Below, in pieces: positions 5,712 to 32,068 of a stretch of DNA of 32,068 nt. Positions within the stretch are counted from its first letter, which is position 1; every line of letters starts with the position of its first letter. A program made the position numbers and the translations under genes. The stretch comes from a virus. Below the pieces are notes generated by a model, which saw only the letters and a program-made list of their open reading frames with translations, made no database searches and had not been told where the DNA came from. Location of the stretch: positions 1 to 32,068 of IMG/VR virus record IMGVR_UViG_3300023116_000200, one strand, 5' to 3'.

Positions 5712-5882
5712 TCATCTCACACCCATGGTTGCCAGAACTTCTTGCTGACGCAGATATAATCTACAGTAAGATTTTGCAAAGTTTTTTAGTTCTTCAAAAT
5801 TCATCTCATCAATCATTCGAGCATGTTTTTCATATTCAAACATTTTACCAATACTTTCAAGGGTGATGTCATTTGGATCCAT
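5712..5882 (-). CDS. Small conserved hypothetical protein (56 aa)
   Basis: Reading the minus strand from ATG 5882 gives 56 residues beginning MDPNDITLESIGKMFEYEKH and ending QEVLATMGVR. The sequence is largely helical and charged, with FEELKNFAKSYCRLYLRQQ in the second half. The start overlaps the last 14 bases of the 66-residue gene, which is typical of coupled late genes. I recall similar short proteins in cyanomyovirus structural clusters but cannot assign a function. The stop lies two bases from the late promoter core, so this gene closes the upstream transcription segment. Confidence 0.72.
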   Translation of the reverse strand: MDPNDITLESIGKMFEYEKHARMIDEMNFEELKNFAKSYCRLYLRQQEVLATMGVR

Positions 5883-13115: not shown

Positions 13116-13117
13116 TT

Positions 13118-14683: not shown

Positions 14684-14702
14684 CGTAAATAGCTTTTTTC
14701 TA

Positions 14703-14710
14703 TATTTATA
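14703..14710 (-). promoter_or_regulatory. T4-type late promoter core TATAAATA upstream of gp8
   Basis: The minus strand reads GATCTATAAATATAGAAAAA, with an exact TATAAATA. The core overlaps the last bases of the gp7-like gene (stop at 14706) and lies 20 bases before the gp8 ATG, so the transcript would have a leader of about 10 bases. It would boost gp8 and the DUF4815 gene independently of the 11.9-kb gp7-like gene upstream. Confidence 0.75.
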
Positions 14711-17700: not shown

Positions 17701-20700
17701 CCAACACCACCAGAAATTTCTGTCGCAGTCGAACCAATACCAACACTAGTAAATCCAACACCAATAATGCTACTATCTGGTCTATAGTTTAATCTTTCAC
17801 CAGTACTAAAGAAGTGATCTTTGATTGTAAATGTTCCAGTTGCAAGATTTAAAACATTTGAGTCTGATGGATTAAATCTCTTTGCAAAGATTGGAGTTCC
17901 CTCATAATTTAATTCAAAATCTAATTTATTTGATCTATCACCATTTCTTGAGTTATAGAATGCTAGTTCAACTTCTTCTGTAACTGGTCCATAATTTAAA
18001 TCTGGAGGAACATTGACAGTATCAGTCTCACTATAGAAAATTTTATCTAAACTTTGAATTTCATATGATCCACTGATTTCAGAATCTGGGTGGAAGACCA
18101 AATTTACATTAGATCCACTATAATTTCCAGAGAAAGTACCCATTCCACAAGTACTACCAATAGATAAGAATGGATATTGTGTTGTATAAACATCAATATT
18201 ATCATGAACCAACATTACCTGATGAATAGAAGTTGTTTCTCCATATGAAACTCTTACTAAAGATTTGACTGATGATACTATAGTCTTGTCTAAAGAAAGA
18301 ATAGTTGATGATGATGATGCTATTGAATTATTCGATTCAAATCGAACGCTTCTTTCAGATCCATCTGGTTGTGAGCTAGTTTTAAATCTATATGTTCCAG
18401 TCCCAACGGATGTTGTACCAAATCCAACGATTTTTCCTCTAACCAAGGTATCTGTTGTTGAGTTGTTAGTGTATTTGATTGATAATAGACCACTATCAAC
18501 ATTAATACCAAACGTTCCAATAAATCCAGATATAGGTCCTACTTTGTTATTTGAATAAACTTCTGATACGTATGAATTTTCTCCATCATGAGTTATTTCA
18601 AATTCTGCATAGTCCATATCTCCAGTCAATTGATTATAAGCCTGGAACTTTGCAAGAACGGAATTTATAGTATCTGTTGCAAATCCAACAAGAGTTTCTG
18701 TGATTCCAGAACCAACTAAAGCATTAGCACCGGTAAGATTTACAAATCCAACGGATTGTGTTCCAATTCCACCCAAAATTGAATTAAAGGATGAACTCAA
18801 AACCTTAATATCATAATCAGTATCAAACTTATCTTCTGGTGTAACTCTTATTGAAAGATTGCCAAAGACGTCCAAATATGATTCAATGTTTGCTACTTCT
18901 TGCTCTGTGCTATGTAATGATGTTTTTTCTAGAGTGATTGAATCTGAAGAACTGTTGAGAACTACCAACTCCGTTAATTGCCTATCATTTCCATTAGGAT
19001 CTACTAGTTGAATTAAGAACTCAGAATATGTGTTGTCATATGAAACAACATCGACATAATCTTCGGTTATATTACTTTGGTTTCTAAACTGTGGACTAAA
19101 GTCATCAATTCTAACAACTCTGTTGGTATCACATCTAATATAATCTGCAAGAACTTTATTTTCTAATTTTAAGTACTTTGATTTCTTCCCATCGGTAGAT
19201 ACGTCAATATCAAGAACATTATCATAGAAATTGATAGTATCAACTCTCTTTTCTTCTAAGATGTCTCTAACTATAACAGAATTGGATGTTGCTGTACGAG
19301 AAGTACCAACATTTACAGAATTTTGTATTTCGGTATCTGCAAAGTTTTTCAAACCTGAAGTATGAAGAAGTCTATTTACTGGATTTGATAGATCCTCATA
19401 ACTTACAGGACTCTTAACGCTGTAAGAAAGATTTTGATAATAATCATTATCTGGTAATACTTGATAATCTACATTCAACTTTCCAATATTATTTGACCAG
19501 TCATAATCCTTTCGGAGAGAATAGTCAATTTTAAATGTTCCTTTATTTTCTTTAATAGAAGAAATTGTTGCTAGTGTTCCCGAATATTGACCTTTAACAA
19601 TCTCATCTTTTTGCAATGAATATGATCCATAAACTTTCAAATAATCATCGCCATACTCAGTTACAATCAAATCTCTAAGTTCAAAGTTAAAACCATTGAA
19701 TGTTAATAGTTTTTCACCTTCAGAGAAAGAAGAATACTTATTTGTTACTTCAAATTTTGGATAATTGGCATAATTTATTATTGATGCATATAAACCTTGA
19801 TTTGTTTTTGCAAGACCAGGATTAGTAGTAAATCCAGATACGTTAAATTCTACTGTTGCTGGATTTGTGTTCTGATACTTAGTTACGGTAAAGAAATTAA
19901 AACCATTATCTGAAGAATTTAATCCATTTCCAGTTGAAGGTATATTTTCAATACCCTCAACATAAATTCTATCTCCTTCAGCAAAAGGTGGATTTGTGTA
20001 TCCAAAAACTGGAGTGCTAATATAGCAAGTAACCAATCCCGATGAAGATGATGCAATAGTGTTAATTCCTATACCATTTGTATTATCTACAGCGAATAGT
20101 TCAGTATTTCCGAAAGGTAATCCTTTGGGGGTTCTAACTATATCAACCTGAGTGATTGAACCCGTTGCTAAAACTGGTTGTAATAATCCCTCATCAATAA
20201 TTTTGCGAGTTTCAGAATTAACTATAACTATTTGTGGAGCGGCAGTTAAATTTTTACCACCATCTCTAACAAATACTGAGGAAATTTCACTAGAATTTTT
20301 TAGTTTTATTTGTGGAGAAATATATGCTTCTGGTCTCAAAGTCAGATCTGAAGAATAACTAAACCCTTGATCTAGTATTGTAGTATTCTTAATTCTTCCA
20401 ATAGTATTGGAATTTGGAGTAATTGATGCATTTTTTCCATCAACAGAAGTAATATCTACAAATGATGGGGTCTTCTTGTAATTAACACCACCAGAAAGGA
20501 TGGATAGTTTATGAACACCACCTTTTTCATTCAATGAAGTTGTAGTATATTTTAAATTGCTGCAATTAGTTTGGTCATAATTTCTTTTCTCTGGATTTCT
20601 TGATAAAGAAACAGTAAAAGTCGTCGATCCAACGCTGGTAATTGGATAATCAATACCACCATACTTACTATCAACAAAATGTATTGAAGAATCGTTCTTA

Positions 20701-23700
20701 ACAGTCTTATCCGAAGTACTAATATAACCAGATTTTTCTACATTGTAGAATAATGGGGATGGTATTGAAGAACTATAGTTCAAAGTTAAGTGTGCTTCAG
20801 AGGAAACACCTACAGTTCCAACTCCGGAAATTGTGAAATTGGATGTTTCTCCAATAGATACAAATTCACTAGAGAAAGTATTATTTGTATAAATTTTGAA
20901 TTCAAATCCATTTAGAGAAGAATCTGATAGATCAAATTTTAAACTATTTCCCTTTACACATTCTATTCTTGGACTAATGTAACTTAATTCTTGACCAGAT
21001 CCTCCAGTGCTTGCAATACTAACAACAGAAGGTGGATCTAATTTTAGATTATACTCAGTAGTAACTAATTGTATATTATTTTCGTCAACCCTATAAACAT
21101 AATATCTACCTGTATTTAATCCAGAAGATATTAAATCACTAGAATCGTAGAATAAGATATCTCCAGTTAAATATCCGTGATTTGTTATATTAATTTTGTT
21201 TGAATCTACATTTATTGATTCGGATCCAAATCCTACAGTATCTACTAGTACCCTTTCTATAGATGAATTATATTTTACTCTTACATGTGTTGAAGTTCCA
21301 ATACCAACAGTTTCTGAAGGAGTAATATTAAATCTTATCTTATCATTTCTCTTTAATTGATGATCTGTGGAAAGAGATACTGTAGTGTTTATCTTCTCTA
21401 CCTTTGCTGTCAACTGATTATAATTTGTTTCAAGATAATATTCGTAACTATTGCTGCCATTACTAAAGAAGAATAGACCATCAGTATTTGTTGTCAAACC
21501 AACTAAAGTTGTCAAACCAATGTAATCTTTTGACTTGTTGATTACATACAATGTCTGAGAGGTTCCACTAACTGGTAAAGCAAACGGAGTTGCTAAAGAA
21601 GTTGCTCCAACAGAAATAGTACTTGCACCATTTGTATAGAAAGTTACTTGTTGGTTTGTCTTAAATGGATGATTTGGTATGTAAATACTTTGTGTTGGTA
21701 CTGATACAACCTTAGCAACATCACCGATGAAATAATTGATTTGGGAACCAGCTCCAGTTGTAGATCCAATTCCAACAGAATTTACTGGATTAAAATAAAT
21801 TCTATCATTAACTTTAGAGTCAAAATAATTTGAAGGTAAATTAATAGTAAATTCTGATGGTTTTGAAAGAACTGCTGTTGATATTGTATGAGCTGCTCCT
21901 GTTACACCTCTCTTTACCCTTAAAACTTTTTCTTGATCAAATATATTCAAAACGGATAGAACTTCTGTTCCAATACCAATAGTAGATCCAACGGATATAT
22001 TGTTTAAGTTTCTGGAAACATAGATATCAGTTACCACTCCAGAAATTGCATTTGAAGAAACTTCTTTTATTAGATAAGTAGTATCTGTTGTTACTCCAAT
22101 TTTATGTGTTTTAGATAAACCAGGAACAAAAGTTGACAGACCACTTATTGTTATGTTTTCCCCATCTACTAGTGTATGATTCGAGGTCGTTTTGATTTCA
22201 AGTTGATTTTTATTCTTCCAAACAACTACGACATCTTCATAAGTTTCTGTTTCTGTAACTAAGTTTATAATATTTTTTCCTTCTAAAGAAGAAACTGATG
22301 CTGTTAATCCACCACCCCCAGTTCCATCATCATTAAAGTTTGCAATATCACCTATCTTGTAATCTTCTCCAGATGAGATAATACTTAATGAATCTACAGA
22401 ACCTTGTGTAACAGAGTCAATCCTAGTTCTTTGACTTACTATCTCATATGACTCTGGAATAAAATCGTTATTGATATCTTGCTCAGAAACACTATAAGGA
22501 TATGTGTTTCTCATCAAATTTGAAGATTCGAAGTCAAATGCTTGGTTTAGTTTTTTGTTCTCTGCAATATACTTGCTCTTAAATGTGTTTCCAACAAAAT
22601 ATGGGAAACTAGGAACCAAACTATTTGTCAATAAATTTGTTGTAATTCCACAGAAGTATGCATAAACTCCATTTGGAAACTCTGGAGTTTTGCAATATCT
22701 TCCATTATGATCATCTAAATTTCCAGTTGAAGTGTATGAGTAATCCTCAACAAAGAAACCAGAATTAAAAGAAGGAGGTCTATTAATTACTCTTGATGGT
22801 AGCAATTCGTATCCAGTACGAATTAGAACCGGATCTGAATTTATATTTTCTGGATCTGAGTATCCATATGGACCATAAATTGGATTCCCGTCATATGCCC
22901 ATCCAACTATTGGGGAGTGTTTGCTTCCGTCATCAATTAAAATTGAATTTCCAATCTGAGTTGAATAACCAACTAAACCATATTGGAGGCCACTACCAGA
23001 TGGATGTAATATTTCATCACCAAATCTAGAATGATTATTAACAGTTAGAGATCTAACATTAACATCAAGAACCGCTCCCGATCCTGGAGGAACCACGGAG
23101 ATATATGTGTTATCTGTATAACCAGATCCAGAGTTTATGACTACAACATCCGTAATTGATCCATTAGAAACAACTGCTCTTAATACAGCACCAGTTCCAT
23201 CACCTCTAACAATTAGATCTGGAGCAGCATTATACTCCGTACCTCTAGCTAGAATAGAAACTCTTTCGATGGATCCTGCAGTAATTAAAGGTCTTAATTC
23301 TGCACTTTTTCCATTTTTTATTGTTATTGCTGGTCTCTTGTGAAGGTTTAATACAGTAGATCCATATCCAGTTCCAGAATCATACAAATATGCATCTACA
23401 ATCTCTCCTCTAATAACTGGAGTTGCTGTTATTACACCAACAATACTACTTCCATAAGAAACATTGATATTTAAAGTTATATCTGGATAAGAGAATGTGT
23501 GATATCCAGTTCCAGGTGATTCAAATTTAACATAATTTTTACTAATGTAATTGGAACTTATAGTGCCACCAACACCAGCGTTAGCTAATCTAAAACTATC
23601 ATTATTTTCTTTTAGAATATAATATTGATTTGATGTTGATAGACCAGTAATTACTGTTCCATCTGAAGAATAATTTACAAGTTCTCCACTCTTGAAATTG

Positions 23701-26609
23701 TGATTTTTAAATGTTACTAAATTCTCTGAAGTAGAAATTCCTGAAGAATTGACATTTAATTTTCTATTTGTATATCCGGATCCAGAATTTAGAACTTTTA
23801 TCTGAGATATATTATTTTTACCATTAAAGACTCTAAACTTGTGGACACCACTATTTGCTATGGTTGTAAATCCAACAGTGTTTATTCCAGAATAATAATC
23901 TGTCTCTGATTGGTATAACTTGATAGTTGAACTATTAACAATTTCTGCAAAATATGCAGATCCATTAATTAAAGTTCTTCCTTGATCTGTGTTGGATGCA
24001 CCAAAAGTTCCAATGCCAATTTCAGAATTTCCATTTTTGTTATATACGATTTTTTCACCATTTTTGAAGTTATGATTAGATAAAAATGTAATCGTCTCAT
24101 TAGTTGAATCAATACCACCACCAGATGAAGAGATATCATTTCCACTGAAAGAAACTTCTCTATATCTTTTTCTTAAGACTGGCTCCAAAACGGCACCATT
24201 GCCGTTTCCACCAGTAATAGAGATTGATATTACATTCGATATATCAAAATCGGATGGATCTACAACTACCGATTTGACAGATCCAGAAACAACAGGTTGA
24301 ATATATGCAGTTGTACCGGCAGATGGTGTAGATACCTCTATAGTTGGTGGGTTGATAACATCATAATTTGAACCAGAATTAAAGACTGTTACTTCATTAA
24401 GTGGACCATAGTATATTTTATTATCGGATTTATAATTAAATATTTCAACACCATTAACCATCATACCGATTGGTCCAACCTCAGTCTCGTCAATTCCAGA
24501 ATCTAATAGATTTTTTTCTGAAGGAAACTTTCTAAAAATACTTTGTGGTTCAATCGATAAATTTCTATCTGAAGATAACGTAAATCTGTGATATCCAGAA
24601 TTTGATGTTGGCACCCCAAATTCTAGATAATCATCAATGTCAATGAACGACCTTGATGAATAAAGTCTAATCTGATTTCCACCACCTACAACTCTAACAT
24701 AGTAAATTCCTTCCTCAATGCCAAATAATGGTGCTAATTCTGGTTGGTAATAGACTTCATCACCAGTTAGTAAATTTACATTTGAATTAAAAGAAATTAT
24801 GGAATATTTTGATGTATTGCTATTATATCCCTGAAGAGTAATATTTGCTTCTGCAGTATCAATCTGCTCGGAAATTAATTTTTCATTTATTTGATATGAT
24901 GGTAATGAATTTGATGCAACATAATAAAATTCATTACCATCATTATAAGTGTTTTGTATATCTGATAGTACTAAATTATTTCCAAACTTAATATTTTGAT
25001 TTGAACTAGATGCTGTTTTTACAACTCTTCTTAAATCATAATATCCACTTAGTGTGGATAAATCAAATCCACTAAGATTATCTAAAGTAACTTCTCTCTT
25101 TGTGTAGTTGATATTACTGACTATTGCGCCACTAAAAATTGGTGTTTGTGTCTTTGAACCGACTATCTCGACAGTATCACCAACTTTTAATGAAGTTTTA
25201 TTTGGATTTCCTTTTAGAGTATATGTTGATGCTGTTTGTGCAGAATCAATGGCAAATCTTGAGCTGGTATTGTAAATCCATGAATTAAAGAACTTTTCTT
25301 TAATTCCATCACCATTAAATATTTTTTCACCAACATTTCTTACAAAAATTTCTTCTCCCTCAATTGCAGAAGAAATATCAGACTTAGTTTCAAAAGATGA
25401 CAGAGATCCGGTAATTTTAAATTCTACCTTCTTTGAAGTATCGCCATTTTCGTATCCAAAATAGATATCATCCGAAAATATGTCTGATGCTACAGTTATC
25501 TCATTTTCAATTCCAAGACAACCAAAGAATTGATTGATATTTTTACTAGAATATGTAATTACATTATTATTTGCTAGTAAAGTTCCTGTTTGTGCAAATC
25601 CAATAGTTGAATCTACCGTGATAATAGACGAACCAGCAGAAACTGTTGTTAAATTTTTAGTATTTGGTGTAATTTTAAAAGTTCCATTAATAAGATCATC
25701 ATCACTAAATCCAACAAATAGACCAACCTTATAATAAGTTTGAGCGTAACCAACCTGTCTGTTTCTTGTGAATATCTCAACTTCTGAGACAGAACCATTT
25801 GTATTGAGATCTTTTGATTTTACTATAGTTTGTCCAACTAATTTATTTGGATCCCCAGAAATTGGTTCTATAATTATAACTTCTCTTCTTAAGAAGTTTG
25901 CTGAGGATGGTTTTAGTAAGAATCCTTCTAAATCAACTATCTTTGGCGTTACACCATATAAAACATTAAAAAGAATTCTAAAGGACTCTTCTGTTCCTTT
26001 TGACTCGTAGAAACTTCTAGATTCTTTTATAAAGTTGCCAACATTTAAGTTGGATACAAAATCAACATCCTCCAACCCAGGAGTTAGTGAATATTTTAGT
26101 TTTTTATAAAATTCTTTTAAAAATAGGGAACTTAAATTTTCTACTCTAGAGTTTGACTCATGACTTGCGCTAGAGGTAGAAGAAAATTGTAATTCATTTT
26201 GATTTGAATCGGATCTATATGATGTAATACCACTAAATCCACGAACACAACCAGTAAAACTATTCGGAGTTATTCCAGTATATGTGATAATTTCATTATC
26301 AATCTTTAATAAACCATATTGTGTAGGGAATCCCTTTGTGGAATTTACACTTATGACATCATCGGTTTCGGTTATTTGACTTTGTAGTTCTGTAAATCCA
26401 ACTATTACATCTGGAGTTAGATTATCTAATTTTAAATATTGATCTAAATTTTCACTAATATCTACAGGACCACTCTGATATTCCTGAGAAATATAGTATT
26501 GCTTTAAAAAATCAACTGCCTTTGGACTTTCAGATAATATAAACTCAGGTAGTTGATTTTCAATAATCTGCTGTACTTTAACTCTAGTCTCAAAACCCGT
26601 TGTTATCAT
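14706..26609 (-). CDS. 7: Giant gp7-like baseplate wedge protein (3967 aa) with YHYH-type domain
   Basis: Position between gp6 and gp8 and the N-terminus (VKVQQIIENQLPEFILSESP, KAVDFLKQYYISQEYQSG) identify the cyanophage gp7 counterpart. T4 gp7 is 1032 residues and nucleates wedge assembly, so this protein is almost four times longer. An N-terminal module has NEIITYTGI and VRGFSG (about 77-130). Residues 130-240 contain FLKEFYKKLKYSLTPGLEDV and RSFYESKGTEESFRILFNVL, probably the conserved gp7 core. The rest is a long chain of beta modules: GxGY units, 'HxFxxG' units and 'DGVIQ'-type segments. Residues about 1225-1340 form a YHYH-type domain. The frame is open over 11.9 kb with no sign of frameshift. 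An AGAGGA Shine-Dalgarno within the gp6 end precedes the ATG. Functions of the added regions are unknown. Confidence 0.88.
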   Translation of the reverse strand: MITTGFETRVKVQQIIENQLPEFILSESPKAVDFLKQYYISQEYQSGPVDISENLDQYLKLDNLTPDVIVGFTELQSQITETDDVISVNSTKGFPTQYGLLKIDNEIITYTGITPNSFTGCVRGFSGITSYRSDSNQNELQFSSTSSASHESNSRVENLSSLFLKEFYKKLKYSLTPGLEDVDFVSNLNVGNFIKESRSFYESKGTEESFRILFNVLYGVTPKIVDLEGFLLKPSSANFLRREVIIIEPISGDPNKLVGQTIVKSKDLNTNGSVSEVEIFTRNRQVGYAQTYYKVGLFVGFSDDDLINGTFKITPNTKNLTTVSAGSSIITVDSTIGFAQTGTLLANNNVITYSSKNINQFFGCLGIENEITVASDIFSDDIYFGYENGDTSKKVEFKITGSLSSFETKSDISSAIEGEEIFVRNVGEKIFNGDGIKEKFFNSWIYNTSSRFAIDSAQTASTYTLKGNPNKTSLKVGDTVEIVGSKTQTPIFSGAIVSNINYTKREVTLDNLSGFDLSTLSGYYDLRRVVKTASSSNQNIKFGNNLVLSDIQNTYNDGNEFYYVASNSLPSYQINEKLISEQIDTAEANITLQGYNSNTSKYSIISFNSNVNLLTGDEVYYQPELAPLFGIEEGIYYVRVVGGGNQIRLYSSRSFIDIDDYLEFGVPTSNSGYHRFTLSSDRNLSIEPQSIFRKFPSEKNLLDSGIDETEVGPIGMMVNGVEIFNYKSDNKIYYGPLNEVTVFNSGSNYDVINPPTIEVSTPSAGTTAYIQPVVSGSVKSVVVDPSDFDISNVISISITGGNGNGAVLEPVLRKRYREVSFSGNDISSSGGGIDSTNETITFLSNHNFKNGEKIVYNKNGNSEIGIGTFGASNTDQGRTLINGSAYFAEIVNSSTIKLYQSETDYYSGINTVGFTTIANSGVHKFRVFNGKNNISQIKVLNSGSGYTNRKLNVNSSGISTSENLVTFKNHNFKSGELVNYSSDGTVITGLSTSNQYYILKENNDSFRLANAGVGGTISSNYISKNYVKFESPGTGYHTFSYPDITLNINVSYGSSIVGVITATPVIRGEIVDAYLYDSGTGYGSTVLNLHKRPAITIKNGKSAELRPLITAGSIERVSILARGTEYNAAPDLIVRGDGTGAVLRAVVSNGSITDVVVINSGSGYTDNTYISVVPPGSGAVLDVNVRSLTVNNHSRFGDEILHPSGSGLQYGLVGYSTQIGNSILIDDGSKHSPIVGWAYDGNPIYGPYGYSDPENINSDPVLIRTGYELLPSRVINRPPSFNSGFFVEDYSYTSTGNLDDHNGRYCKTPEFPNGVYAYFCGITTNLLTNSLVPSFPYFVGNTFKSKYIAENKKLNQAFDFESSNLMRNTYPYSVSEQDINNDFIPESYEIVSQRTRIDSVTQGSVDSLSIISSGEDYKIGDIANFNDDGTGGGGLTASVSSLEGKNIINLVTETETYEDVVVVWKNKNQLEIKTTSNHTLVDGENITISGLSTFVPGLSKTHKIGVTTDTTYLIKEVSSNAISGVVTDIYVSRNLNNISVGSTIGIGTEVLSVLNIFDQEKVLRVKRGVTGAAHTISTAVLSKPSEFTINLPSNYFDSKVNDRIYFNPVNSVGIGSTTGAGSQINYFIGDVAKVVSVPTQSIYIPNHPFKTNQQVTFYTNGASTISVGATSLATPFALPVSGTSQTLYVINKSKDYIGLTTLVGLTTNTDGLFFFSNGSNSYEYYLETNYNQLTAKVEKINTTVSLSTDHQLKRNDKIRFNITPSETVGIGTSTHVRVKYNSSIERVLVDTVGFGSESINVDSNKINITNHGYLTGDILFYDSSDLISSGLNTGRYYVYRVDENNIQLVTTEYNLKLDPPSVVSIASTGGSGQELSYISPRIECVKGNSLKFDLSDSSLNGFEFKIYTNNTFSSEFVSIGETSNFTISGVGTVGVSSEAHLTLNYSSSIPSPLFYNVEKSGYISTSDKTVKNDSSIHFVDSKYGGIDYPITSVGSTTFTVSLSRNPEKRNYDQTNCSNLKYTTTSLNEKGGVHKLSILSGGVNYKKTPSFVDITSVDGKNASITPNSNTIGRIKNTTILDQGFSYSSDLTLRPEAYISPQIKLKNSSEISSVFVRDGGKNLTAAPQIVIVNSETRKIIDEGLLQPVLATGSITQVDIVRTPKGLPFGNTELFAVDNTNGIGINTIASSSSGLVTCYISTPVFGYTNPPFAEGDRIYVEGIENIPSTGNGLNSSDNGFNFFTVTKYQNTNPATVEFNVSGFTTNPGLAKTNQGLYASIINYANYPKFEVTNKYSSFSEGEKLLTFNGFNFELRDLIVTEYGDDYLKVYGSYSLQKDEIVKGQYSGTLATISSIKENKGTFKIDYSLRKDYDWSNNIGKLNVDYQVLPDNDYYQNLSYSVKSPVSYEDLSNPVNRLLHTSGLKNFADTEIQNSVNVGTSRTATSNSVIVRDILEEKRVDTINFYDNVLDIDVSTDGKKSKYLKLENKVLADYIRCDTNRVVRIDDFSPQFRNQSNITEDYVDVVSYDNTYSEFLIQLVDPNGNDRQLTELVVLNSSSDSITLEKTSLHSTEQEVANIESYLDVFGNLSIRVTPEDKFDTDYDIKVLSSSFNSILGGIGTQSVGFVNLTGANALVGSGITETLVGFATDTINSVLAKFQAYNQLTGDMDYAEFEITHDGENSYVSEVYSNNKVGPISGFIGTFGINVDSGLLSIKYTNNSTTDTLVRGKIVGFGTTSVGTGTYRFKTSSQPDGSERSVRFESNNSIASSSSTILSLDKTIVSSVKSLVRVSYGETTSIHQVMLVHDNIDVYTTQYPFLSIGSTCGMGTFSGNYSGSNVNLVFHPDSEISGSYEIQSLDKIFYSETDTVNVPPDLNYGPVTEEVELAFYNSRNGDRSNKLDFELNYEGTPIFAKRFNPSDSNVLNLATGTFTIKDHFFSTGERLNYRPDSSIIGVGFTSVGIGSTATEISGGVGIGTTDVLPSSVYAIKVTNDEFRLATTPQYAAAGIGVTFTSVGTGNYHQLEMHKRIEKVVLSVDGVIQYPIAFNPLGYSLVDNGGQVSSGSTYISVSGIASIRPADILKIDDEYVKVIAVGFGTTSTGPIDNVGVTTLVNISRGFVGSSATSHLDSTSFQIYRGSYNIAGSKLFFTEPPKGGADNGINLSNLREAFSSFNGRVFLKKDYSSNVIYDDISDQFTGIGRTFTLTSSGLNTTGISTGSGILLINDVFQTPTTDNNAGNDYELNDEVGITSVTFAGITSSNGQVVIDPVYIEQNQLPRGGYIISLGSTNGLGYAPLVGASVTAFIDGSGSITAVGIGSTDINGSGYAGPVSVAVTSPTGYGADISAIVGAGGSLSFTVDNPGTGYAESNTFVSVSAPSYENMPVTGVSRLGIGTTSETGTGLLLSLEVGASSTTGIGSTLFEVKSFNITRPGYGFRNGDVFKPIGLVTDRNLSEPISGFELTVIETFTDSFSAWQFGELDYIDSIANLQDGKRTRFPLYYNSQLISFQKDSENVDSADIDLNALLIIFVNGVIQDPGVNYNFDGGTSFSFSEAPEETDNVSIFFYRGTRGVDSDIIDVNETIKIGDVVQVLKNANADTVTQNPRTVVGITSSDVMETNLYNGPGIDENQYKPLSWSKQKADKIIGNEFVSKSRDSIETQVYPTAKIIKNVSDSSNEIFVDDAYFFNYEENESAIVIDSFNLLMVDSVDPVSAAVTAVISTGGTVQSIDIINAGSGYTGSSVDIKISSPPHIKVGVGTTATATISIVNGSLSGTANITNPGLGYTIPPKAIVEFPAPNYENIGNVSTVEGFSGIITGIGTTVGTGGHGLGLKLFLNASFFTGLSVNYPICVVDTKVGHGVTSVDSGDASIVSIGTTFLDNIYYIHDISVSGGNAEILTNIRTDTSTVGIAITGSSTEPLGRFSWGRLSGMERSTSPISIGVTGLTFNSGLTTFPTIQRRGFGLRNTGSLRKDL
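22590..22937 (-). other. YHYH-type domain with YAYF in place of YHYH
   Basis: Residues about 1225-1340 of the gp7-like protein contain GWAYDGNPIYGPYGY (D1240 to Y1250), LDDHNGRYCKTPEFPNG (1298-1314), then YAYF at 1316-1319 and a SFPYFVG stretch. The order DGxPIYGPYGY, LDxxNGR, TPEFPxG, YxYx, PYxxG is that of the YHYH protein family. The histidines of the name-giving motif are replaced by Ala and Phe. The one remaining His nearby is H1301. Domain limits are approximate. Confidence 0.72.
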
Positions 26610-26610: not shown

Positions 26611-28512
26611 TTATCCTCTTGTTAATTCTCCGTTTGTATAGCTTGAAGTAACCTTAAATCCAACTCCAGATATCTGCTCACCAGAAGTAATAGTATCTTT
26701 TATCATATTTATTGAACTATTCGAAATGTCAAAATTCAAATAAAGATCCTTTAATCCAATAACATCATTTGATTCTGGGAAAGCCTGAATTTCAATAATA
26801 TTGTTTGGTTTATCAGTTGAGGTAATGTTTATAGTTCCTATTATTATCTCACCTTTTACATAATCTACTGTTCCTGCAGATTTAACAACAACTACATTTT
26901 TATCATTTTCCAAATCTCTTCTAACTACAGAGATAACACCAGTCAAACCATCAGCATTTGGAGTATCTGTAAAATATACCGTCTGAGATGAACCAGAAAT
27001 TTTAAATCCAGTGGTCTTAATATTCATCCCCTTTGGATTTACATGGAATCTATTACCATAACACAATTCATACTGAGCAAATTGATTTGTTAGTGCCTTT
27101 AAGTTCCTCCTAATTCTAACTTTTGTAATATTAGATGTTATTGCAGTATCAATACCATCAATCACACCTAAAACTTTACTATACTTGAATCTACCACCAA
27201 ACTTGTTAATATCTCTAGATTCTCCATACACTTCTAAACCATTAATAACTTTGGTTTTCAAATCATTAACATTAGTAACTTGTGATGAATTATAATAAAT
27301 TGAAGAATCTAATTCAACATACAATAACTTCAAATCAAGTATTTTTTGATTAATTCCTGTCAGAGAATAATTTTTTAGATTTGAAAGAATTTGTTGTTTA
27401 TCAAAATCAGATACAAATTCTCCATTTTTTGGTTTAATGGTAATAAAAACGGTTCCAAATTGTGGTGGATCTAGTTCTTCTCCACCAACTACAGAAACAC
27501 TTTCTGTGTTTGGATAAATTGATTGTATAATCGATTCGTAGTCCCTTCCAGTAACCGCTCTATACTGTGCAGAGTACAGTCTAGGGGCAAAGTACTTAAT
27601 AGAATCTATAGATTCAATGTCGCCGCCGTTAGATGCCGCAGAGATCGTTGTTATTGTTGGGGTTGTGTTTGGAACAACAACATCATTAGCATCCAATCCT
27701 CTCAAACTACCAGAAAAGGAGAATTGTGATGGTCCATTACCATCTTTTCCGTCGGTTATAATATAGGTAACTGTTATAATAGTACCATCTTCCAACTTTT
27801 TACCAAAAATACCATCGCCAAATAGAAGTTCATACTTCTCATCTTGAACTTCTTGAATTAAATATGTCTCCGAATCTGACTTTACGTTTAAGATGTTATC
27901 AACTTTTTGGTATTGAGGTCCTAGACCAACGTCAGAAAGACCTTTTACATATACGACAATAGTTGAAGTATCAATAAATGAATTATCAAGCAAGAATCTC
28001 TGGTCTAGTGACCCATCAACAACAAATTGCTTGCTTAAAAATGTTCCTTGATATACACTAATTGGATTTTGAGATGTTCCAAAACTAGCAACACCATTAA
28101 CAACTGTTGTTGTTATATTTTCTGGAACAGAAAATACATAAGAAGTGTTATCAACAGCACCAACGCACACTAGACCCGCTTGTAAAGTTACTGTTGGGTT
28201 TGATGTGGTAGTTTGCACATTAAATGCGATAGATGCCTTAGAGGCGGTTCTAGAGCGAGGTACGTATCCTATGTTTCTCGCCAAAGAAACCACATTTTCT
28301 CTAAGTGTTGCTGAGTCCAGAAAAGACTCATTAACAATCATATTAGAGTTGAATGCAGTTATATAAGTATTATACGCTAACGTATCAATTAAGACTGAGA
28401 AATTAGATCCTTCAAAGTCAAAATCCGTGAATGTTGAATTAGCACGGAGATAATCTTTGATAGATTCTCTTATTTGATCAAAGTCTAAGTTAGAAAACTT
28501 GGTAAAAGGCAT
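26611..28512 (-). CDS. 6: Baseplate wedge protein gp6 (Baseplate J-like)
   Basis: The 633-residue length is close to T4 gp6 (660). The N-terminal region has the strongly conserved signature FDFEGSNFSVLIDTLAYNTY, then NMIVNESFLDSATLRENVVS, LARNIGYVPRS and ASIAFNV. The middle contains EKYELLFGDGIFGKKLEDG and APRLYSAQYRAVTGRDYESI, followed by FGTVFITIKP, typical of Baseplate J-like proteins. In T4, gp6 dimers form the inner iris that links neighbouring wedges through gp7 and gp53 contacts. It follows gp25 by one base and precedes gp7 by one base, the same order as in other cyanomyoviruses. No large insertion is apparent, in contrast to gp7, gp8 and gp14. Confidence 0.95.
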   Translation of the reverse strand: MPFTKFSNLDFDQIRESIKDYLRANSTFTDFDFEGSNFSVLIDTLAYNTYITAFNSNMIVNESFLDSATLRENVVSLARNIGYVPRSRTASKASIAFNVQTTTSNPTVTLQAGLVCVGAVDNTSYVFSVPENITTTVVNGVASFGTSQNPISVYQGTFLSKQFVVDGSLDQRFLLDNSFIDTSTIVVYVKGLSDVGLGPQYQKVDNILNVKSDSETYLIQEVQDEKYELLFGDGIFGKKLEDGTIITVTYIITDGKDGNGPSQFSFSGSLRGLDANDVVVPNTTPTITTISAASNGGDIESIDSIKYFAPRLYSAQYRAVTGRDYESIIQSIYPNTESVSVVGGEELDPPQFGTVFITIKPKNGEFVSDFDKQQILSNLKNYSLTGINQKILDLKLLYVELDSSIYYNSSQVTNVNDLKTKVINGLEVYGESRDINKFGGRFKYSKVLGVIDGIDTAITSNITKVRIRRNLKALTNQFAQYELCYGNRFHVNPKGMNIKTTGFKISGSSQTVYFTDTPNADGLTGVISVVRRDLENDKNVVVVKSAGTVDYVKGEIIIGTINITSTDKPNNIIEIQAFPESNDVIGLKDLYLNFDISNSSINMIKDTITSGEQISGVGFKVTSSYTNGELTRG

Positions 28513-28513
28513 T

Positions 28514-28915
28514 TTATCTTGTTGCCTCTAATATGAATGTGAACTCCTGGGTTGGAAACTCCTGTCCTACGATGTCAAAGATGATTGTCGCTTCAAATTC
28601 ATTAGTATCAGGTCTTGGAATAACCTCAACCTGTACATTTTCGACTCTTGGTTCAAAATTTTCTATTGTAATCTCAATTTGTCTCTGAATAATAGAAGCA
28701 GTACCATAATCAACAAAGTCAAACAAACTTGAACGAACCTCTGACCCTAAAAGTGAGTTAAAAAACCTTTCCGTTGGAATGGTTTCTACAAGATTCCTTA
28801 CGGATCTCTTGATTGCATTCTCATTTTTAAGGATTGTCATGTCCTTTGTCACCGGATGGGGATCAAAGGATAAACTAATATCTTTAAATGATCTAGATAT
28901 CCTTTGAATTGCCAT
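28514..28915 (-). CDS. 25: Baseplate wedge protein gp25
   Basis: At 133 residues this matches T4 gp25 (132). Recognisable features are AIKRSVRNLVETIPTERFFN at 34-53, GSEVRSSLFDF at 57-67, IQRQIEITIENFEPRVENVQ at 76-95 and VEVIPR, aligning with T4 SLRSIKNSL, SAVRNYEPRI and NVIP. gp25 is a gpW/gp25 lysozyme-like-fold protein of the baseplate inner ring that initiates sheath polymerisation. It is the first gene of the compact gp25-gp6-gp7-gp8 run and has a CATAAATA late-promoter-like core 24 bases upstream. No clear Shine-Dalgarno precedes the ATG. Confidence 0.94.
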   Translation of the reverse strand: MAIQRISRSFKDISLSFDPHPVTKDMTILKNENAIKRSVRNLVETIPTERFFNSLLGSEVRSSLFDFVDYGTASIIQRQIEITIENFEPRVENVQVEVIPRPDTNEFEATIIFDIVGQEFPTQEFTFILEATR

Positions 28916-28938
28916 CTGAACGAGAGTTTTCTTGCCTT

Positions 28939-28946
28939 TATTTATG
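28939..28946 (-). promoter_or_regulatory. Probable late promoter core CATAAATA upstream of gp25
   Basis: The minus strand reads AGCATAAATAAAGGCAAG, one base from the T4 late consensus at its first position. It lies 24 bases before the gp25 ATG, at a spacing similar to the exact TATAAATA site before gp8. It overlaps the stop region of the 72-residue gene upstream. It would serve the gp25-gp6-gp7 run. Confidence 0.55.
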
Positions 28947-28947
28947 C

Positions 28948-29166
28948 TTACTCATGCCATCTTTCAACAAAATCATCAAATCCGTGGGGTCCACCACATG
29001 GACGTTCTAGACGATCGTCTGGAATTGGGTAGAGTTCTTCGTTTTGAGTGATTTTTCTTTGTTTTGCTGCTTTTCTAAGGTATTTTTCACTTTCTACTTC
29101 TGTAATAAGGGTCATTCCATTCTCTATGAACAGATTTCCCTTGTCAACTTCGTGATGGTTTCCCAT
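28948..29166 (-). CDS. Conserved hypothetical protein (72 aa)
   Basis: The protein has a charged N-terminus (GNHHEVDKGNLFIENGMTLI), a basic helix KYLRKAAKQRK, and an acidic C-terminus with RLERPCGGPHGFDDFVERWH. I do not recognise a named family. A good AGGAG Shine-Dalgarno lies five bases before the ATG, partly within a stem-loop at 29175-29192. It precedes gp25 and follows the 218-residue gene. The aromatic GPHGFDDFVERW end looks like a conserved binding surface, but no role can be assigned. Confidence 0.75.
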   Translation of the reverse strand: MGNHHEVDKGNLFIENGMTLITEVESEKYLRKAAKQRKITQNEELYPIPDDRLERPCGGPHGFDDFVERWHE

Positions 29167-29174
29167 TTTAGCTC

Positions 29175-29192
29175 CTGTTTCGTTAAAAACAG
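29175..29192 (-). promoter_or_regulatory. Stem-loop overlapping the Shine-Dalgarno of the 72-aa gene
   Basis: On the minus strand CTGTTT pairs with AAACAG around a TTAACG loop. The 3' arm ends in the AG that begins the AGGAG Shine-Dalgarno (29172-29176), five bases from the ATG. It could modulate initiation. It has no U-tract and is not a terminator on this strand. Confidence 0.4.
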
Positions 29193-29222
29193 AACTTTTA
29201 GAGGGGTTGCTATCCCTTATCT

Positions 29223-29879
29223 CTATTTATTTTCACGTTCTTGGGCAGTTTTCCAGTGATATTCATCCTCATTTCCCATCCCAAGACGATCATAACCACA
29301 CTCTACCTGATACCATTGGGTTGAAACCTTAAAGTCAGGCATTTTTGGTTCTTTTGGAGTCAAACTATTATCAAAAATGCGTAATCTGTTGTTTGGATAC
29401 AGTGCATATTGTCCATTATTGAGTTCAATTAGGTTATGTGACTTGTGTTCTGCTGGATTTTCACTCGTTGCCCAGTCAACCATGTCTGGATCGCGGTGAT
29501 AATTGTCTATTGTGCAGACATAAGTGCCTTTTTGAATGCCGTGATCACGTGTATAGCACTCAAAATCCATACTTCCAATGAATTTCTTGTCAATACTTAC
29601 CACACCATAGTCCATACAGTTCCAAAACTGTAGATTTGGAAGATCCATATCAGGATCTGGTGTTTCTGGTGATGAAACAAACGCACTGATGGGCAATTTA
29701 TCATACATTGCCGCATATTCAGGCAAATATGTCTCAAAATAAAAAGCGCGTCCAGGAATCGACTTTGCCGAAACCCAAACGCCCTTTACAAATTCACCAT
29801 GTCCGCTTTGATGATCTGTTAGATACTCTTTACGAACCCATACTTCAAGTGAGGGTAAGTTCGTAATTAAACAAGACAT
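29223..29879 (-). CDS. Conserved hypothetical cyanophage protein (218 aa)
   Basis: The protein is rich in Trp, Tyr and Cys, with no signal peptide or membrane segment. Recognisable stretches are LEVWVRKEYLTDHQSGHGEF near the N-terminus, GRAFYFETYLPEYAAMYDKL at about 43-62, LQFWNCMDYGVVSI at about 83-96 and QWYQVECGYDRLGMGNEDEY near the C-terminus. I recall such sequences upstream of gp25 in marine T4-like phages but know of no function. Placement among late genes favours a virion or assembly role. Upstream, a weak GTTAAATA (29904-29911) is the only late-promoter-like sequence. The start chosen is the first ATG of the frame, which follows the 45-residue gene by 27 bases. Confidence 0.78.
   Translation of the reverse strand: MSCLITNLPSLEVWVRKEYLTDHQSGHGEFVKGVWVSAKSIPGRAFYFETYLPEYAAMYDKLPISAFVSSPETPDPDMDLPNLQFWNCMDYGVVSIDKKFIGSMDFECYTRDHGIQKGTYVCTIDNYHRDPDMVDWATSENPAEHKSHNLIELNNGQYALYPNNRLRIFDNSLTPKEPKMPDFKVSTQWYQVECGYDRLGMGNEDEYHWKTAQERENK
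29224..29231 (-). promoter_or_regulatory. Possible late promoter core AATAAATA
   Basis: The minus strand reads GAAAATAAATAGAGATAAG at the stop of the 218-residue gene, 58 bases before the 72-residue gene. It matches the late core except at the first base. AT-rich chance matches occur elsewhere inside genes, so this is tentative. Confidence 0.35.
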
Positions 29880-29906
29880 GTGACAAATTTACTATTCTGT
29901 TGTTAT

Positions 29907-30044
29907 TTAACCCTTACCTTGACCACGATATGCTTTACGTGCTTTGTTGCGAGACGACGCGGCATACTTAGTATTCGTTCCGCTTCCTTGCCGAGACTTT
30001 TTGGGTTTCCCGGGCACATAACCGCCACCTTTACGCATAGCCAT
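29907..30044 (-). CDS. Small basic Gly/Lys-rich protein (45 aa)
   Basis: Reading from ATG 30044 gives MAMRKGGGYVPGKPKKSRQG, then SGTNTKYAASSRNKARKAYR and GQGKG, then TAA. About a third of the residues are Lys, Arg or Gly, and none are acidic, so the protein is very basic and probably disordered. I recall similar KGGGY-PGKPKKSRQGSG proteins encoded by many cyanophages. An alternative start two codons later (position 30038) is possible. It begins 2 bases after the stop of the 56-residue gene. Nucleic-acid binding or incorporation with DNA in the head would fit the charge, but is inference. Confidence 0.78.
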   Translation of the reverse strand: MAMRKGGGYVPGKPKKSRQGSGTNTKYAASSRNKARKAYRGQGKG

Positions 30045-30046
30045 AA

Positions 30047-30217
30047 TTAAATCTCCGTGTAATCGTTGAACATTTCAGTTTGAATTTGTTTTGGACTAGG
30101 ATGACCTGTCTGATAATACTCTAAGGACAGGTCATCCATAATAGCGAAGTATTCTTCCTCTGTCAATGATTTGTGGGCTATACGCCCTTTGATGAGTATA
30201 TTGTACTTCGTTGCCAT
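30047..30217 (-). CDS. Small conserved hypothetical protein (56 aa)
   Basis: The open frame extends back to an ATG at 30298, but residues before MATKYNILIKG overlap the end of the glycosyltransferase-like gene and read as its shadow. The ATG at 30217 is 4 bases after that gene's stop and gives a protein of a type I recall from cyanophages. It has MATKYNILIKGRIAHKSLTE, then EEYFAIMDDLSLEYYQTGHP with a SPKQIQTE tail. The pattern is a short strand followed by an acidic helix (LTEEEYFAIMDDLSLEYYQT). Function is unknown. Confidence 0.75.
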   Translation of the reverse strand: MATKYNILIKGRIAHKSLTEEEYFAIMDDLSLEYYQTGHPSPKQIQTEMFNDYTEI

Positions 30218-30221
30218 CGCA

Positions 30222-30980
30222 TCAAATAACTCTTGTTTTTTCGTGACCAACGCGGATGCGAGGATCACACCAGATTTCAAAGCCAGCTTCTTTTGCATCC
30301 AGGCAGAAACTTACATCTTCTCCACACATATCCTGAACCTCACCAGATTCAAAGACTTGCATCTTCGGAGCAAACCAAGGATACTGCATACCCTTATCTT
30401 CGAATACACCATTCTTGATGAGCAACCATCCAAAACCAGTGTAATCAACAGTGAAGGGCTTACGACGCTTCTGAATGCTATCAAGAGTCTCGTGATTCAT
30501 GACTCCACCGTTATTGCGGAAGTCATCCTCCTCTAACCAGTGAGCAACTGATGTGGTGTGACCATCTTCAGTGCAGTACCAACCAGCAGCAATATCCTTT
30601 TCCATTAGAACAAGTTGCCAGAACTTCTCACTATTGAAAACAATATCACTATCGATCCACAGTTGCCAATCGTAGTTCAGTTTTCCATCCCAAGGTAGTT
30701 GATCTGGACCACGCAGAACATTAGCACCAAGGCACTTACAGCGTGCAAAATTCACCATGGAACTATAGTCCTGTGAAATCTGAATACTGGCACCTGCTTG
30801 TACGAGATCAAAACAGAGCTGTACAAAACTCTTCAAATATGTGTAAGAAACTCCTCTTCCTGGGAGACAGAACACAACCGTTTTGCCCCTTACAAGTTCT
30901 TTTGCTTTTTCGTAGTCCCACTCAGGTTCTTCCCGAGACGGCATGGGGCTCTTTGCCTTTACAGTAAATCCTTTAGCCAT
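30222..30980 (-). CDS. GT-A fold glycosyltransferase-like protein
   Basis: The 252-residue protein has an N-terminal TVVFCLPGRGVSYTYLKSFV strand-helix. This is followed by SQDYSSMVNFARCKC and then WQLWIDSDIVF, which places a DxD-type motif (D110-S-D112) after a hydrophobic strand, as in nucleotide-sugar transferases that bind a divalent metal. Later motifs are VDYTGFGWLLIKNGVF, GEDVSFCLDAKEAGFEI (GED at 220-222) and a conserved His (H246) in RVGHEK. These are characteristic of GT-A family 2-like enzymes. The likely reaction is sugar transfer to a virion or host glycan, but donor and acceptor cannot be read. It follows a consensus sigma-70 promoter with a leader of about 16 bases and no obvious Shine-Dalgarno, unlike the late-promoter genes. 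Confidence 0.75.
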   Translation of the reverse strand: MAKGFTVKAKSPMPSREEPEWDYEKAKELVRGKTVVFCLPGRGVSYTYLKSFVQLCFDLVQAGASIQISQDYSSMVNFARCKCLGANVLRGPDQLPWDGKLNYDWQLWIDSDIVFNSEKFWQLVLMEKDIAAGWYCTEDGHTTSVAHWLEEDDFRNNGGVMNHETLDSIQKRRKPFTVDYTGFGWLLIKNGVFEDKGMQYPWFAPKMQVFESGEVQDMCGEDVSFCLDAKEAGFEIWCDPRIRVGHEKTRVI

Positions 30981-31002
30981 AATAGAGCGTAATTACTTCA
31001 GT

Positions 31003-31031
31003 ATCATACAGTATTATGTATAGGTTGTCAA
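31003..31031 (-). promoter_or_regulatory. Sigma-70 promoter, TTGACA-N17-TATGAT
   Basis: On the minus strand TTGACA (31031-31026) is followed after exactly 17 bases by TATGAT (31008-31003), one mismatch from the full consensus. Transcription would start near 30996 and enter the glycosyltransferase-like gene, whose ATG is at 30980. It starts inside the short gap after the AbrB-like gene. A promoter this close to the host housekeeping consensus suggests early or middle expression by unmodified host polymerase. Confidence 0.8.
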
Positions 31032-31052
31032 TTGCCCTCTATTGAAAATCTC

Positions 31053-31223
31053 TCAGTCTTGTTCGCTGAGCAGTACTTCACTACCCTCAACGGCAAACCC
31101 AATCTCCGTATCCTCATACCATGAGAGCTCGTTGATAACCCACTCAGGGATAACTAAAAAGTACTCTCCCGTCACTGTATCGACTTGGATAGGTTTCGAA
31201 CTACCTCCGGAATTTTTTCGCAT
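31053..31223 (-). CDS. Small AbrB/SpoVT-like protein (56 aa)
   Basis: Translation from ATG 31223 gives MRKNSGGSSKPIQVDTVTGE, then YFLVIPEWVINELSWYEDTE and IGFAVEGSEVLLSEQD. From residue 12 the pattern IQVD...TGEYFLVIPEWV-x-x-x-x-x-W-x-x-x-T-x-I-x-F-x-V-x-G-x-x-V-x-L is that of a swapped-hairpin AbrB-like domain, the DNA-binding part of many antitoxins and transition regulators. No toxin-like partner gene adjoins it. The first 11 residues are outside the domain and another start cannot be excluded. A leader of about 155 bases precedes it, after the terminator, with an imperfect hairpin at 31350-31372 and no clear promoter. DNA binding is inferred from the domain shape. Confidence 0.65.
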   Translation of the reverse strand: MRKNSGGSSKPIQVDTVTGEYFLVIPEWVINELSWYEDTEIGFAVEGSEVLLSEQD

Positions 31224-31379
31224 CTCTTAGATTATCGAACCTCTTTCTGTCTTTTATATAGCGAAAAATTTTTTAGACCCCCTCGGTAATTCCTTTGCGT
31301 TTTAGATTTAGAGGGCGATCGTAACACTTTATAGATTAGGGGATCCTATGCGTTTTTAATATACAAGAACGCGCCCCAT

Positions 31380-31403
31380 AAAAAAAGGGGGCACAACGCC
31401 CCC
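31380..31403 (-). terminator. Strong intrinsic terminator after the GC-rich small genes
   Basis: On the minus strand GGGGGC, a GTTGT loop and GCCCCC form a perfect six-pair GC stem, followed at once by seven T residues. It lies 26 bases after the stop of the 80-residue gene and separates the GC-rich block from the AbrB-like gene. It is the only clear rho-independent terminator I saw in the window. Confidence 0.92.
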
Positions 31404-31429
31404 AACTGCTGGTCACGAACGAATGCCTA

Positions 31430-31672
31430 TCAGTAGCGGCAGGCGAGGGGGGAGTGTGCCTGGCGATCTGCCAAACGATCGCGGGCGGCGGCGATGCGAT
31501 CGGCGCGGTATTGTGCCTTCGCCTTTGCCATCACCCCGTCAAGGTCCTCCACCATGGAGGCACCCAGACCGCGTGCCTTGGTGAAGGTCATGCCGCCACC
31601 GCTGCTAGCGCGGAGAGCGCCGCCCTTGGTGTTGGTGTCGGTGGAGCGGGTGTTGCCGATTGCGCGTGCCAT
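31430..31672 (-). CDS. Hypothetical small protein in GC-rich block (80 aa)
   Basis: The protein begins ARAIGNTRSTDTNTKGGALR, has a Gly/Ser-rich stretch (SSGGGMTFTKARGLGAS), and ends in an Ala/Arg-rich helix (AKAKAQYRADRIAAARDRLA). I do not recognise a family. Support comes from the extended -10 promoter-like element about 23-31 bases upstream of the ATG and from the terminator after its stop. The frame also avoids stops in very GC-rich DNA. GC content is far above that of the structural genes. No Shine-Dalgarno is evident. An overlapping frame in the same strand (31588-31818) is less convincing. Confidence 0.6.
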   Translation of the reverse strand: MARAIGNTRSTDTNTKGGALRASSGGGMTFTKARGLGASMVEDLDGVMAKAKAQYRADRIAAARDRLADRQAHSPLACRY

Positions 31673-31694
31673 GGGGTTCGTTGCTGTTGTGAAT

Positions 31695-31703
31695 ATTGTA
31701 GCA
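31695..31703 (-). promoter_or_regulatory. Possible extended -10 promoter, TGCTACAAT
   Basis: The minus strand carries TGC directly before TACAAT, an extended -10 element, just after the stop of the 48-residue gene and 23 bases before the 80-residue gene. No -35 match is present. Initiation near 31688 would give a short leader. It is tentative. Confidence 0.4.
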
Positions 31704-31705
31704 GA

Positions 31706-31852
31706 TCAGAAGGCGATCGGGGCAGAGGTCGGAGCGTTGATTTCGGCAACGTTTCCCTGGTCGGAATCGGCGGCGATCGTTTCCAGGATCGCCAGGAGTT
31801 GGGCACCGTCAGCGGCACGGTTCAGGAGGGAAGCAGCGAGGTCGCGGGTCAT
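31706..31852 (-). CDS. Small conserved hypothetical protein (48 aa)
   Basis: Reading from ATG 31852 gives MTRDLAASLLNRAADGAQLL, then AILETIAADSDQGNVAEINA and PTSAPIAF. An N-terminal helix pair (LAASLL, then GAQLLAILETI) is followed by an Asp/Gln turn and an extended hydrophobic end. I recall short proteins in cyanophages and picocyanobacteria that start MTRD and end with a similar P-I-x-F, which supports this frame over the overlapping longer one. No function is known to me. The start is 10 bases after three tandem CAAACCA repeats and has no Shine-Dalgarno. Confidence 0.65.
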   Translation of the reverse strand: MTRDLAASLLNRAADGAQLLAILETIAADSDQGNVAEINAPTSAPIAF

Positions 31853-31862
31853 GGTAGGATCG

Positions 31863-31883
31863 TGGTTTGTGGTTTGTGGTTTG
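31863..31883 (-). repeat. Three tandem 7-bp repeats (CAAACCA on the minus strand)
   Basis: On the plus strand TGGTTTG occurs three times without interruption. On the minus strand this puts CAAACCACAAACCACAAACC just before the start of the 48-residue gene. A run of eight G lies close by at 31892-31899. The location in the 5' leader suggests a regulatory or translation role. Confidence 0.85.
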
Positions 31884-31903
31884 AAAGGAAAGGGGGGGGA
31901 GGA

Positions 31904-32068
31904 TCAGAGGTCCGTCATCATCTCCTCCATCTCTTGGGCATCGATGGCGGGGTCATCCCAGCGAACACCGTCGCCAGTCTTGACGAGGTGGCGTCCGATC
32001 TGTCCGTCAGTCATGCAGCGGATGAACTTTTCCCAAGGGGTCTCCCAAGGGGCACAGAACTCAACACA
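31904..32068 (-). CDS. C-terminal part of an unidentified protein, cut by window edge
   Basis: The frame is open from the right edge to TGA at 31904-31906, giving at least 54 residues. It reads CVEFCAPWETPWEKFIRCMT, then DGQIGRHLVKTGDGVRWDDP and an acidic end AIDAQEMEEMMTDL. The 5' end is outside the window, although an in-frame ATG at residue 19 could be an internal start. The mix of Trp, Cys and charged residues looks like a real coding sequence, and codons are GC-rich like the two genes after it. I do not recognise a family. Confidence 0.6.
   Translation of the reverse strand, partial: CVEFCAPWETPWEKFIRCMTDGQIGRHLVKTGDGVRWDDPAIDAQEMEEMMTDL

Follow-up and report, generated by a model that had tools for sequence, protein, structure and literature searches.

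A GC-rich block of small genes beside gp25 in a T4-like cyanophage fragment, probably the end of a variable island fitted to host expression

Introduction

The right end of the viral DNA studied here raises a simple question: why does an AT-rich phage sequence turn GC-rich at a single point, 665 bases before it stops? The window, that is, the whole stretch of DNA analysed, is a 32,068-base viral record (IMGVR_UViG_3300023116_000200) whose best DNA relatives are Synechococcus T4-like phages. A sequence-only reading had described a jump in composition at a terminator, explained by recent acquisition from a host, by codon choice suited to strong expression or by an assembly join, and had seen in some words of the block a hint of the cyanobacterial HIP1 palindrome. 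The jump itself is borne out, with a GC content of 0.612 (61.2%) over 31404-32068 vs 0.344 (34.4%) over 1-31403, and the base counts given for it are exact (42 of 60 G or C from 31441, 17 of 60 from 19141).

In the text of Sullivan et al. (2010, PMC3037559) considered here, the gp46-gp25 region of T4-like cyanophages is one of four hot spots of Synechococcus-phage-enriched genes. We argue that the block is probably the tail-side end of a variable small-gene island lying between gp46 and gp25, and that this island is fitted to the expression machinery of the uninfected host. The feature is thus partly known, as a variable region; the mechanism proposed here adds a host dialect with plug-in promoter-leader units.

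Results

Position and gene content of the block

Judged by its sequence, the window is a fragment of a T4-like cyanophage whose right end enters the small-gene region beside gp25. The baseplate genes gp6 and gp25 lie at 26611-28915 on the minus strand; the small genes adjoin them, facing away from the tail genes, and the isolates share this order. The window ends at 32068, before any gp46, and the gp25 side alone is seen here. The tail region holds two giant minus-strand frames of 3967 and 2349 aa (14706-26609 and 6066-13115). A 218-aa gene at 29223-29879 matches phrog_3704, named ferredoxin there, and the gene at the matching place in S-SKS1 is named PurM in one record, which conflicts with that label.

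The results below on the step in GC, on conservation and codon match, on tRNAs and leaders, on the place of the -10 box, and on repeats and contig ends were computed directly. In 600-bp windows left of the block the mean GC is 0.343 (sd 0.032, maximum 0.445), and an intermediate shelf of 0.422 over 29501-31403 precedes the step. The step coincides with a minus-strand intrinsic terminator, its stem followed by a T-run (Table 1); the terminator scan found two sites vs 1.1 from shuffles, and the scan alone is therefore weak. The block consists of three minus-strand genes of 80, 48 and 54 aa, the last one cut at its 5' end, and the long plus-strand frames across it are antisense to known families. 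The 54-aa fragment scores 58.2 bits against the curated DUF7249 (PF23907) cut-off of 27.

Table 1. Features of the block, its border and the synteny anchor (window coordinates unless another locus is given)
Feature	Position	Strand	Remarks
DUF7249 gene (PF23907 / phrog_871), C-terminal part, cut by contig end	31904..32068	-	Pfam 1.8e-15, PHROG 8.3e-15; GC3 0.71
Full DUF7249 homologue, 82 aa	L126:9409-9657		in 99.5% relative
P0002, 48-aa small protein (MTRDLAASLLNRAADG...)	31706..31852	-	75 related viral-contig loci, 8 phage records; GC3 0.71
P0001, 80-aa basic small protein	31430..31672	-	39 related viral-contig loci; GC3 0.77
Predicted -10 box TACAAT of 80-aa gene (P0001)	31695..31700	-	28 to 23 nt before ATG
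A/C-rich leader of 80-aa gene (P0001), without Shine-Dalgarno	31673..31694	-	23 homologues: A+C 0.72, Shine-Dalgarno 9%
A/C-rich leader of 48-aa gene (P0002), without Shine-Dalgarno	31853..31882	-	45 homologues: A+C 0.81, Shine-Dalgarno 0%
Intrinsic terminator closing the island towards the tail genes	31387..31403	-	7-bp stem, 6 G-C pairs; T-run from 31386 down
First gene left of the island, 56 aa, phrog_661	31053..31223	-	GC3 0.47; border marker, outside the island
gp25 baseplate wedge gene, synteny anchor	28514..28915	-	phrog_261 1.4e-50, PF04965

Codon usage

GC at third codon positions (GC3) is 0.71-0.77 in the three block genes (Table 1), 0.16-0.33 in the tail-side genes and 0.32-0.48 in the genes of the shelf. 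The spacers within the block reach only 0.45-0.53 GC. Thus, codons carry much of the effect, and the GC jump is caused mainly by them. The three homologue families likewise have mean GC3 values of 0.62, 0.69 and 0.73 (n = 31, 55 and 99 distinct sequences).

The codons chosen are those of the host. Codon frequencies of the island, taken from 9,182 codons in homologues of the three genes, correlate with those of a picocyanobacterial pool (ten loci from nine genomes) at r 0.90, and a residual r of 0.75 remains when GC3 is removed; against the tail genes of the window itself r is -0.08. Compared with the host average, the ribosomal-protein operons of these nine genomes give the island a slightly closer fit, the gain being 0.024 bits per codon (bootstrap 0.013-0.036), and the departures of the island from that average agree with the ribosomal genes only partly (r 0.33). 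In six isolates the DUF7249 gene ranks 1, 8, 4, 3, 1 and 1 of 142-171 genes for host-like codons, genes below 45 aa having been excluded; these ranks and the leader statistics given below carry the error of a simple codon-based caller, which yielded 147-173 genes per genome and trimmed some starts. Several other top ranks are held by neighbours of DUF7249 within 2.5 kb. High ranks are also taken by psbA (5-21, in all six isolates), gp32 (6-18, recognised in five) and gp23 (3-10, in three). Since these are strongly expressed genes, the host-like codon score was read as expression-related. S-RSM4 and S-WAM2 have another cluster of small genes with host-like codons some 8-10 kb from the first, as does S-H9-1 towards the opposite end of its circular record.

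A regional bias of mutation or recombination, such as GC-biased repair, an origin or a recombination hot spot, would lift GC whatever the codons. It could explain why first and second positions of the block genes are raised too (GC1 0.60-0.67, GC2 0.44-0.60) and why the region is variable and breaks assemblies. However, such a bias does not account for spacers so much poorer in GC than the third positions beside them, for a host codon match that survives the removal of GC3, or for the high ranks of psbA, gp32 and gp23. We therefore regard it as unlikely, though it is the strongest of the alternatives.

The same values of GC1 and GC2 might be attributed to the make-up of small proteins rich in Ala, Gly, Arg and Asp. 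Amino-acid composition does contribute to GC, but it is the third positions that change most, and GC3 refutes composition as the main cause; as a full explanation it is improbable. Codon choice suited to strong expression, one of the options of the sequence-only reading, is instead supported by the codon match and the ranks, as well as by the tRNA pattern described below.

Conservation of the block genes and their occurrence in hosts

It could be argued that the genes resemble the host in codon usage because they were taken from it recently and have yet to drift to phage composition. The word CGATCG, common in hosts (1972 copies in the 2.4-Mb WH7803 genome, against 103 of its mirror word), would fit such an origin. 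However, comparison of the sequences indicates that the block genes form a set long shared among phages. DUF7249 is present in 136 of 50,697 phage records; P0001 had no match in the phage collection at E 0.01. The searches with the 80-aa and 48-aa proteins that had been proposed earlier found both among viral contigs (39 and 75 loci), while 198 candidate stretches of genome contigs yielded no confirmed copy of the 80-aa protein. DUF7249 was found in none of nine picocyanobacterial genomes (a weak negative), in one of 31 of one genus and in three of 300 of the family, and the copies seen are diverged. Recent transfer from a host thus has very little probability, and the corresponding option of the sequence-only reading is not supported. 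If old genes retain host codons, selection or steady replacement is needed.

The diverged DUF7249-like genes (L430 in G034:C19, L431 in G188, L432 in G303) come from few picocyanobacterial genomes, and one of them lies on a 2.59-Mb contig.

The hint of HIP1 fared no better. The full octamer GCGATCGC has no copy in the whole window. CGATCG has four copies in the block and two in the rest of the window, and with synonymous codons permuted and proteins kept, the four copies in the block genes compare with 2.2 expected (p = 0.068), so that the excess is not significant. In the homologue families the observed counts and permutation means are 27 and 15.9 for P0002, 16 and 8.2 for P0003, and 10 and 9.7 for P0001. 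Most islands of the isolates are not rich in the word, with 0-2 copies within 2 kb, and Sf-CH11 has five. HIP1-bearing cyanobacterial DNA was thus rejected as a candidate.

That an assembly join of phage with foreign DNA made the jump, an idea invited by the contig stopping so soon after it, is refuted by contigs from four other metagenome datasets that match 28899-32068 at 99.5% identity (L008-L011), by a fifth (L012) that matches 29223-32068 at 88.5%, all of them crossing the junction, and by isolate genomes that peak in GC at the same gene. The island is an old and variable cluster and not the product of misassembly or of a recent capture of host DNA.

GC peak in relatives

The sequence-only reading had also pointed to the GC of the flanking sequence and to that of the same genes in related phages. 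Taken together, the outcome is mixed. Past the end of the window, the 20-kb relative G001, which is 99.5% identical, stays at 0.53-0.56 for about 0.5 kb and then drops to 0.44-0.45, rising again to peaks of 0.55-0.58 within 2.5 kb. As for the second point, most relatives are GC-rich in these genes and some, such as S-SKS1, are not. At seven isolate loci there is a local GC peak of 0.53-0.62 (250-bp windows) at or beside the DUF7249 gene, and in whole-genome scans of six isolates this locus has the highest 500-bp GC in five, Syn33 being the exception. Among contigs anchored on gp25 and picked by upstream length, not for DUF7249 (34 of the best-scoring 80 loci), a GC of 0.50 is reached by 0 of 34 in each of the 500-bp bins that cover the first 2 kb upstream, by one of 33 at 2-2.5 kb and by 10 of 26 at 2.5-3 kb, the later bins holding few contigs.

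The peak is weak in three AT-rich contigs of this set (L282, L295 and L335). S-SKS1 was isolated on WH7803, and its syntenic small genes, a DUF7249-like one among them, have a GC3 of 0.24-0.56. Together, these cases indicate that host GC alone does not set the effect, and that its strong form is limited to part of the phage group.

Phage tRNAs

The isolates carry tRNA genes of their own (S-H9-1, 13; S-RSM4, 12; S-PRM1, 8; S-WAM2, 12; Syn33, 5; Sf-CH11, 8), and most of their anticodons (TCT, TAC, TAA, TAG, TGT, TCC, TGG, TGA, TGC) read A-ending codons, among them AGA, GTA, TTA, ACA, GGA and CCA. No tRNA gene was found in the fragment, and the comparison pairs the tail genes of the window with the tRNAs of its relatives. 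The nine codons served account for 46.7% of the relevant codons in those tail genes (2,348 of 5,033). The island families have 11.8% (576 of 4,869), the block itself has 10 of 107 and the host pool 2,685 of 34,124. Thus, the island largely avoids the codons served by phage tRNAs.

Leaders, promoters and repeated units

The last 25 bases upstream of the block genes are rich in A and C. To the values for P0001 and P0002 given in Table 1, DUF7249 adds an A+C of 0.76 (60 sequences), vs 0.53 in 799 other phage genes. Shine-Dalgarno-like words, scarce in the first two families, occur in 10% of DUF7249 leaders vs 34% in other phage genes. Host psbA leaders were considered as a model for these leaders and rejected, as the ones listed are mostly T/C-rich. 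Host-like codons and A/C leaders go together only weakly when all 963 called genes are taken (rho 0.13).

A -10-like hexamer is found in 96% of distinct upstream regions of P0001 and 92% of those of DUF7249 (shuffled 44% and 32%), nearly always 26-35 nt before the ATG. For P0002 the figure is 36% vs 42% in shuffles, none beyond chance, and this gene, which mostly lacks such a box, is probably transcribed from the promoter of DUF7249. Across isolates the excess is modest, with 16 of 27 island genes vs 337 of 936 others (p 0.024). Inverted repeats upstream of the -10 box are enriched (DUF7249 39% vs 15% shuffled; P0001 55% vs 13%), and the boxes have no clear -35 element.

Promoter and leader also recur as a unit. 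The 99.5% relative (L126) has five copies of a 28-base -10-and-leader unit before different small genes, and L303 has six copies of a 43-base promoter-leader unit, again before different small genes. In S-H9-1 no repeated promoter-leader family was seen over the stretch tested. S-SKS1 has its own AT-rich sets of repeated upstream units; at L429:7100-13111 many non-homologous small genes follow near-identical upstream units, some of 84-102 nt, with G-poor leaders.

Variability of the region

Gene order around the island differs among relatives, and assemblies tend to stop there. Among contigs of at least 20 kb, 15 of 37 anchored on DUF7249 end within 2.5 kb upstream and one of 37 within 2.5 kb downstream, with 2.1 expected on each side; with gp25 as the anchor, nine of 19 stop at 1-5.5 kb on the upstream side and none stop downstream (loci from the best-scoring 80 of each). 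The right end of the window is a further case of a contig ending near DUF7249.

Discussion

The evidence from codons, tRNAs and leaders, which we consider good, argues for an island adapted to the uninfected host. This adaptation would consist of preferred host codons, A/C-rich leaders free of Shine-Dalgarno sites, often a nearby -10 box of the gene's own, and a terminator at the end. Host RNA polymerase and host tRNAs could then produce the island proteins rapidly and abundantly as soon as infection starts, while the AT-rich tail genes would follow later, leaning partly on phage tRNAs for A-ending codons. The repeated promoter-leader units would permit gene swaps, which may render the region variable and break assemblies.

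In this scheme, host codons probably let the cell make island proteins quickly as infection begins, the early timing being, like the high protein output and the use against the host, a part of the explanation that we infer. What suggests an early action of these proteins on the host is the design of their expression. A wider reading is more tentative, being possible but less likely than the fit to the host itself: T4-like cyanophages may have two translational dialects, one of a swappable immediate-early island in host codons, whose A/C-rich leaders without Shine-Dalgarno sites the untouched host could read, and one of late genes with the A-ending codons that phage tRNAs serve. In that case the supply of tRNAs would act as a timing switch, and the repeated units would form a plug-in host-takeover array that includes DUF7249.

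If this is true, the genes of a phage genome that are needed before phage tRNAs exist could be told by their codon dialect and leader type, and a few tiny proteins would be singled out as likely first-strike proteins against marine Synechococcus. It would also bear on why cyanophages carry tRNAs for A-ending codons, and suggests why metagenome assemblies of T4-like cyanophages often stop at the island.

Comparisons can be drawn with other phages. PeSL cassettes, each an early promoter plus a stem-loop, are found in hyperplastic regions of T4-type phages. In relatives of the window, sigma70-like promoter units likewise recur ahead of small genes that are unrelated to one another, the region being variable, and inverted repeats are enriched upstream of the island's -10 boxes; however, the island's stem-loops, putative terminators, are present in only 39-55% of cases and thus not universal. 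To our knowledge, the description of PeSL cassettes does not include host-dialect codons or A/C leaders. The host-takeover module of the Bacillus phage SPO1 is a dense set of small genes, many with their own promoters, thought to serve early takeover. The island may be compared with it in its dense small genes and own promoters, but SPO1 takeover genes carry strong Shine-Dalgarno sites and the island genes lack them.

The variable gp46-gp25 region matches the island in its gp25 side and its small hypothetical genes; local GC, codon usage, leaders and repeated promoters are not mentioned in the portion of Sullivan et al. (2010, PMC3037559) considered here. Puxty et al. (2015, PMC4503421), in the text considered, mention PeSL cassettes and also the S-PM2 ORFanage, a variable small-gene cluster that is found in a related phage and lies to the same side of the tail genes. 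The ORFanage was rejected as the same locus, since its deletion spans 5,799-15,339 of S-PM2 and the S-PM2 DUF7249 gene, at 23,894-24,055, lies outside. In the open-access literature we recognised no paper on cyanophages that describes leaders of this kind or an island marked by high GC or host codons.

The products of the block give few clues to their action. DUF7249 is acidic, with 14 D/E and 6 K/R in 82 aa, and its predicted structure is confident (pLDDT 92.8) and has four helices. This fold had no Foldseek PDB hit at E 10 and no VIA match; in BFVD the only clear hit was a 72%-identical cyanophage protein, K7YAQ1 being weaker. A DNA-mimic action was considered from the acidic charge, and nothing further supported it. 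Ocr is a DNA mimic and was the model for this reading. The model of the basic 80-aa protein is poor (pLDDT 61.5). The block proteins had no PADLOC defence match and no convincing PDB sequence match.

Some phages have two DUF7249 genes at a large distance from each other, as in S-B43 (at 140548 and 200739) and in G005 (at 4822 and 109095). Some deposited annotations in GC-rich islands deserve attention. In S-PRM1 the deposited genes at L002:518-757 and 1117-1497 are antisense to likely real ones, the codon model calling the opposite strand, with a P0001-like N-terminus, and in S-PM2 the annotation at L258:7875-8081 is likewise antisense to a likely real gene. The DUF7249 gene of Sf-CH11 (L007:4001-4252) is labelled 'aldehyde ferredoxin oxidoreductase C-terminal domain-containing protein', a label for which the family match gives no support.
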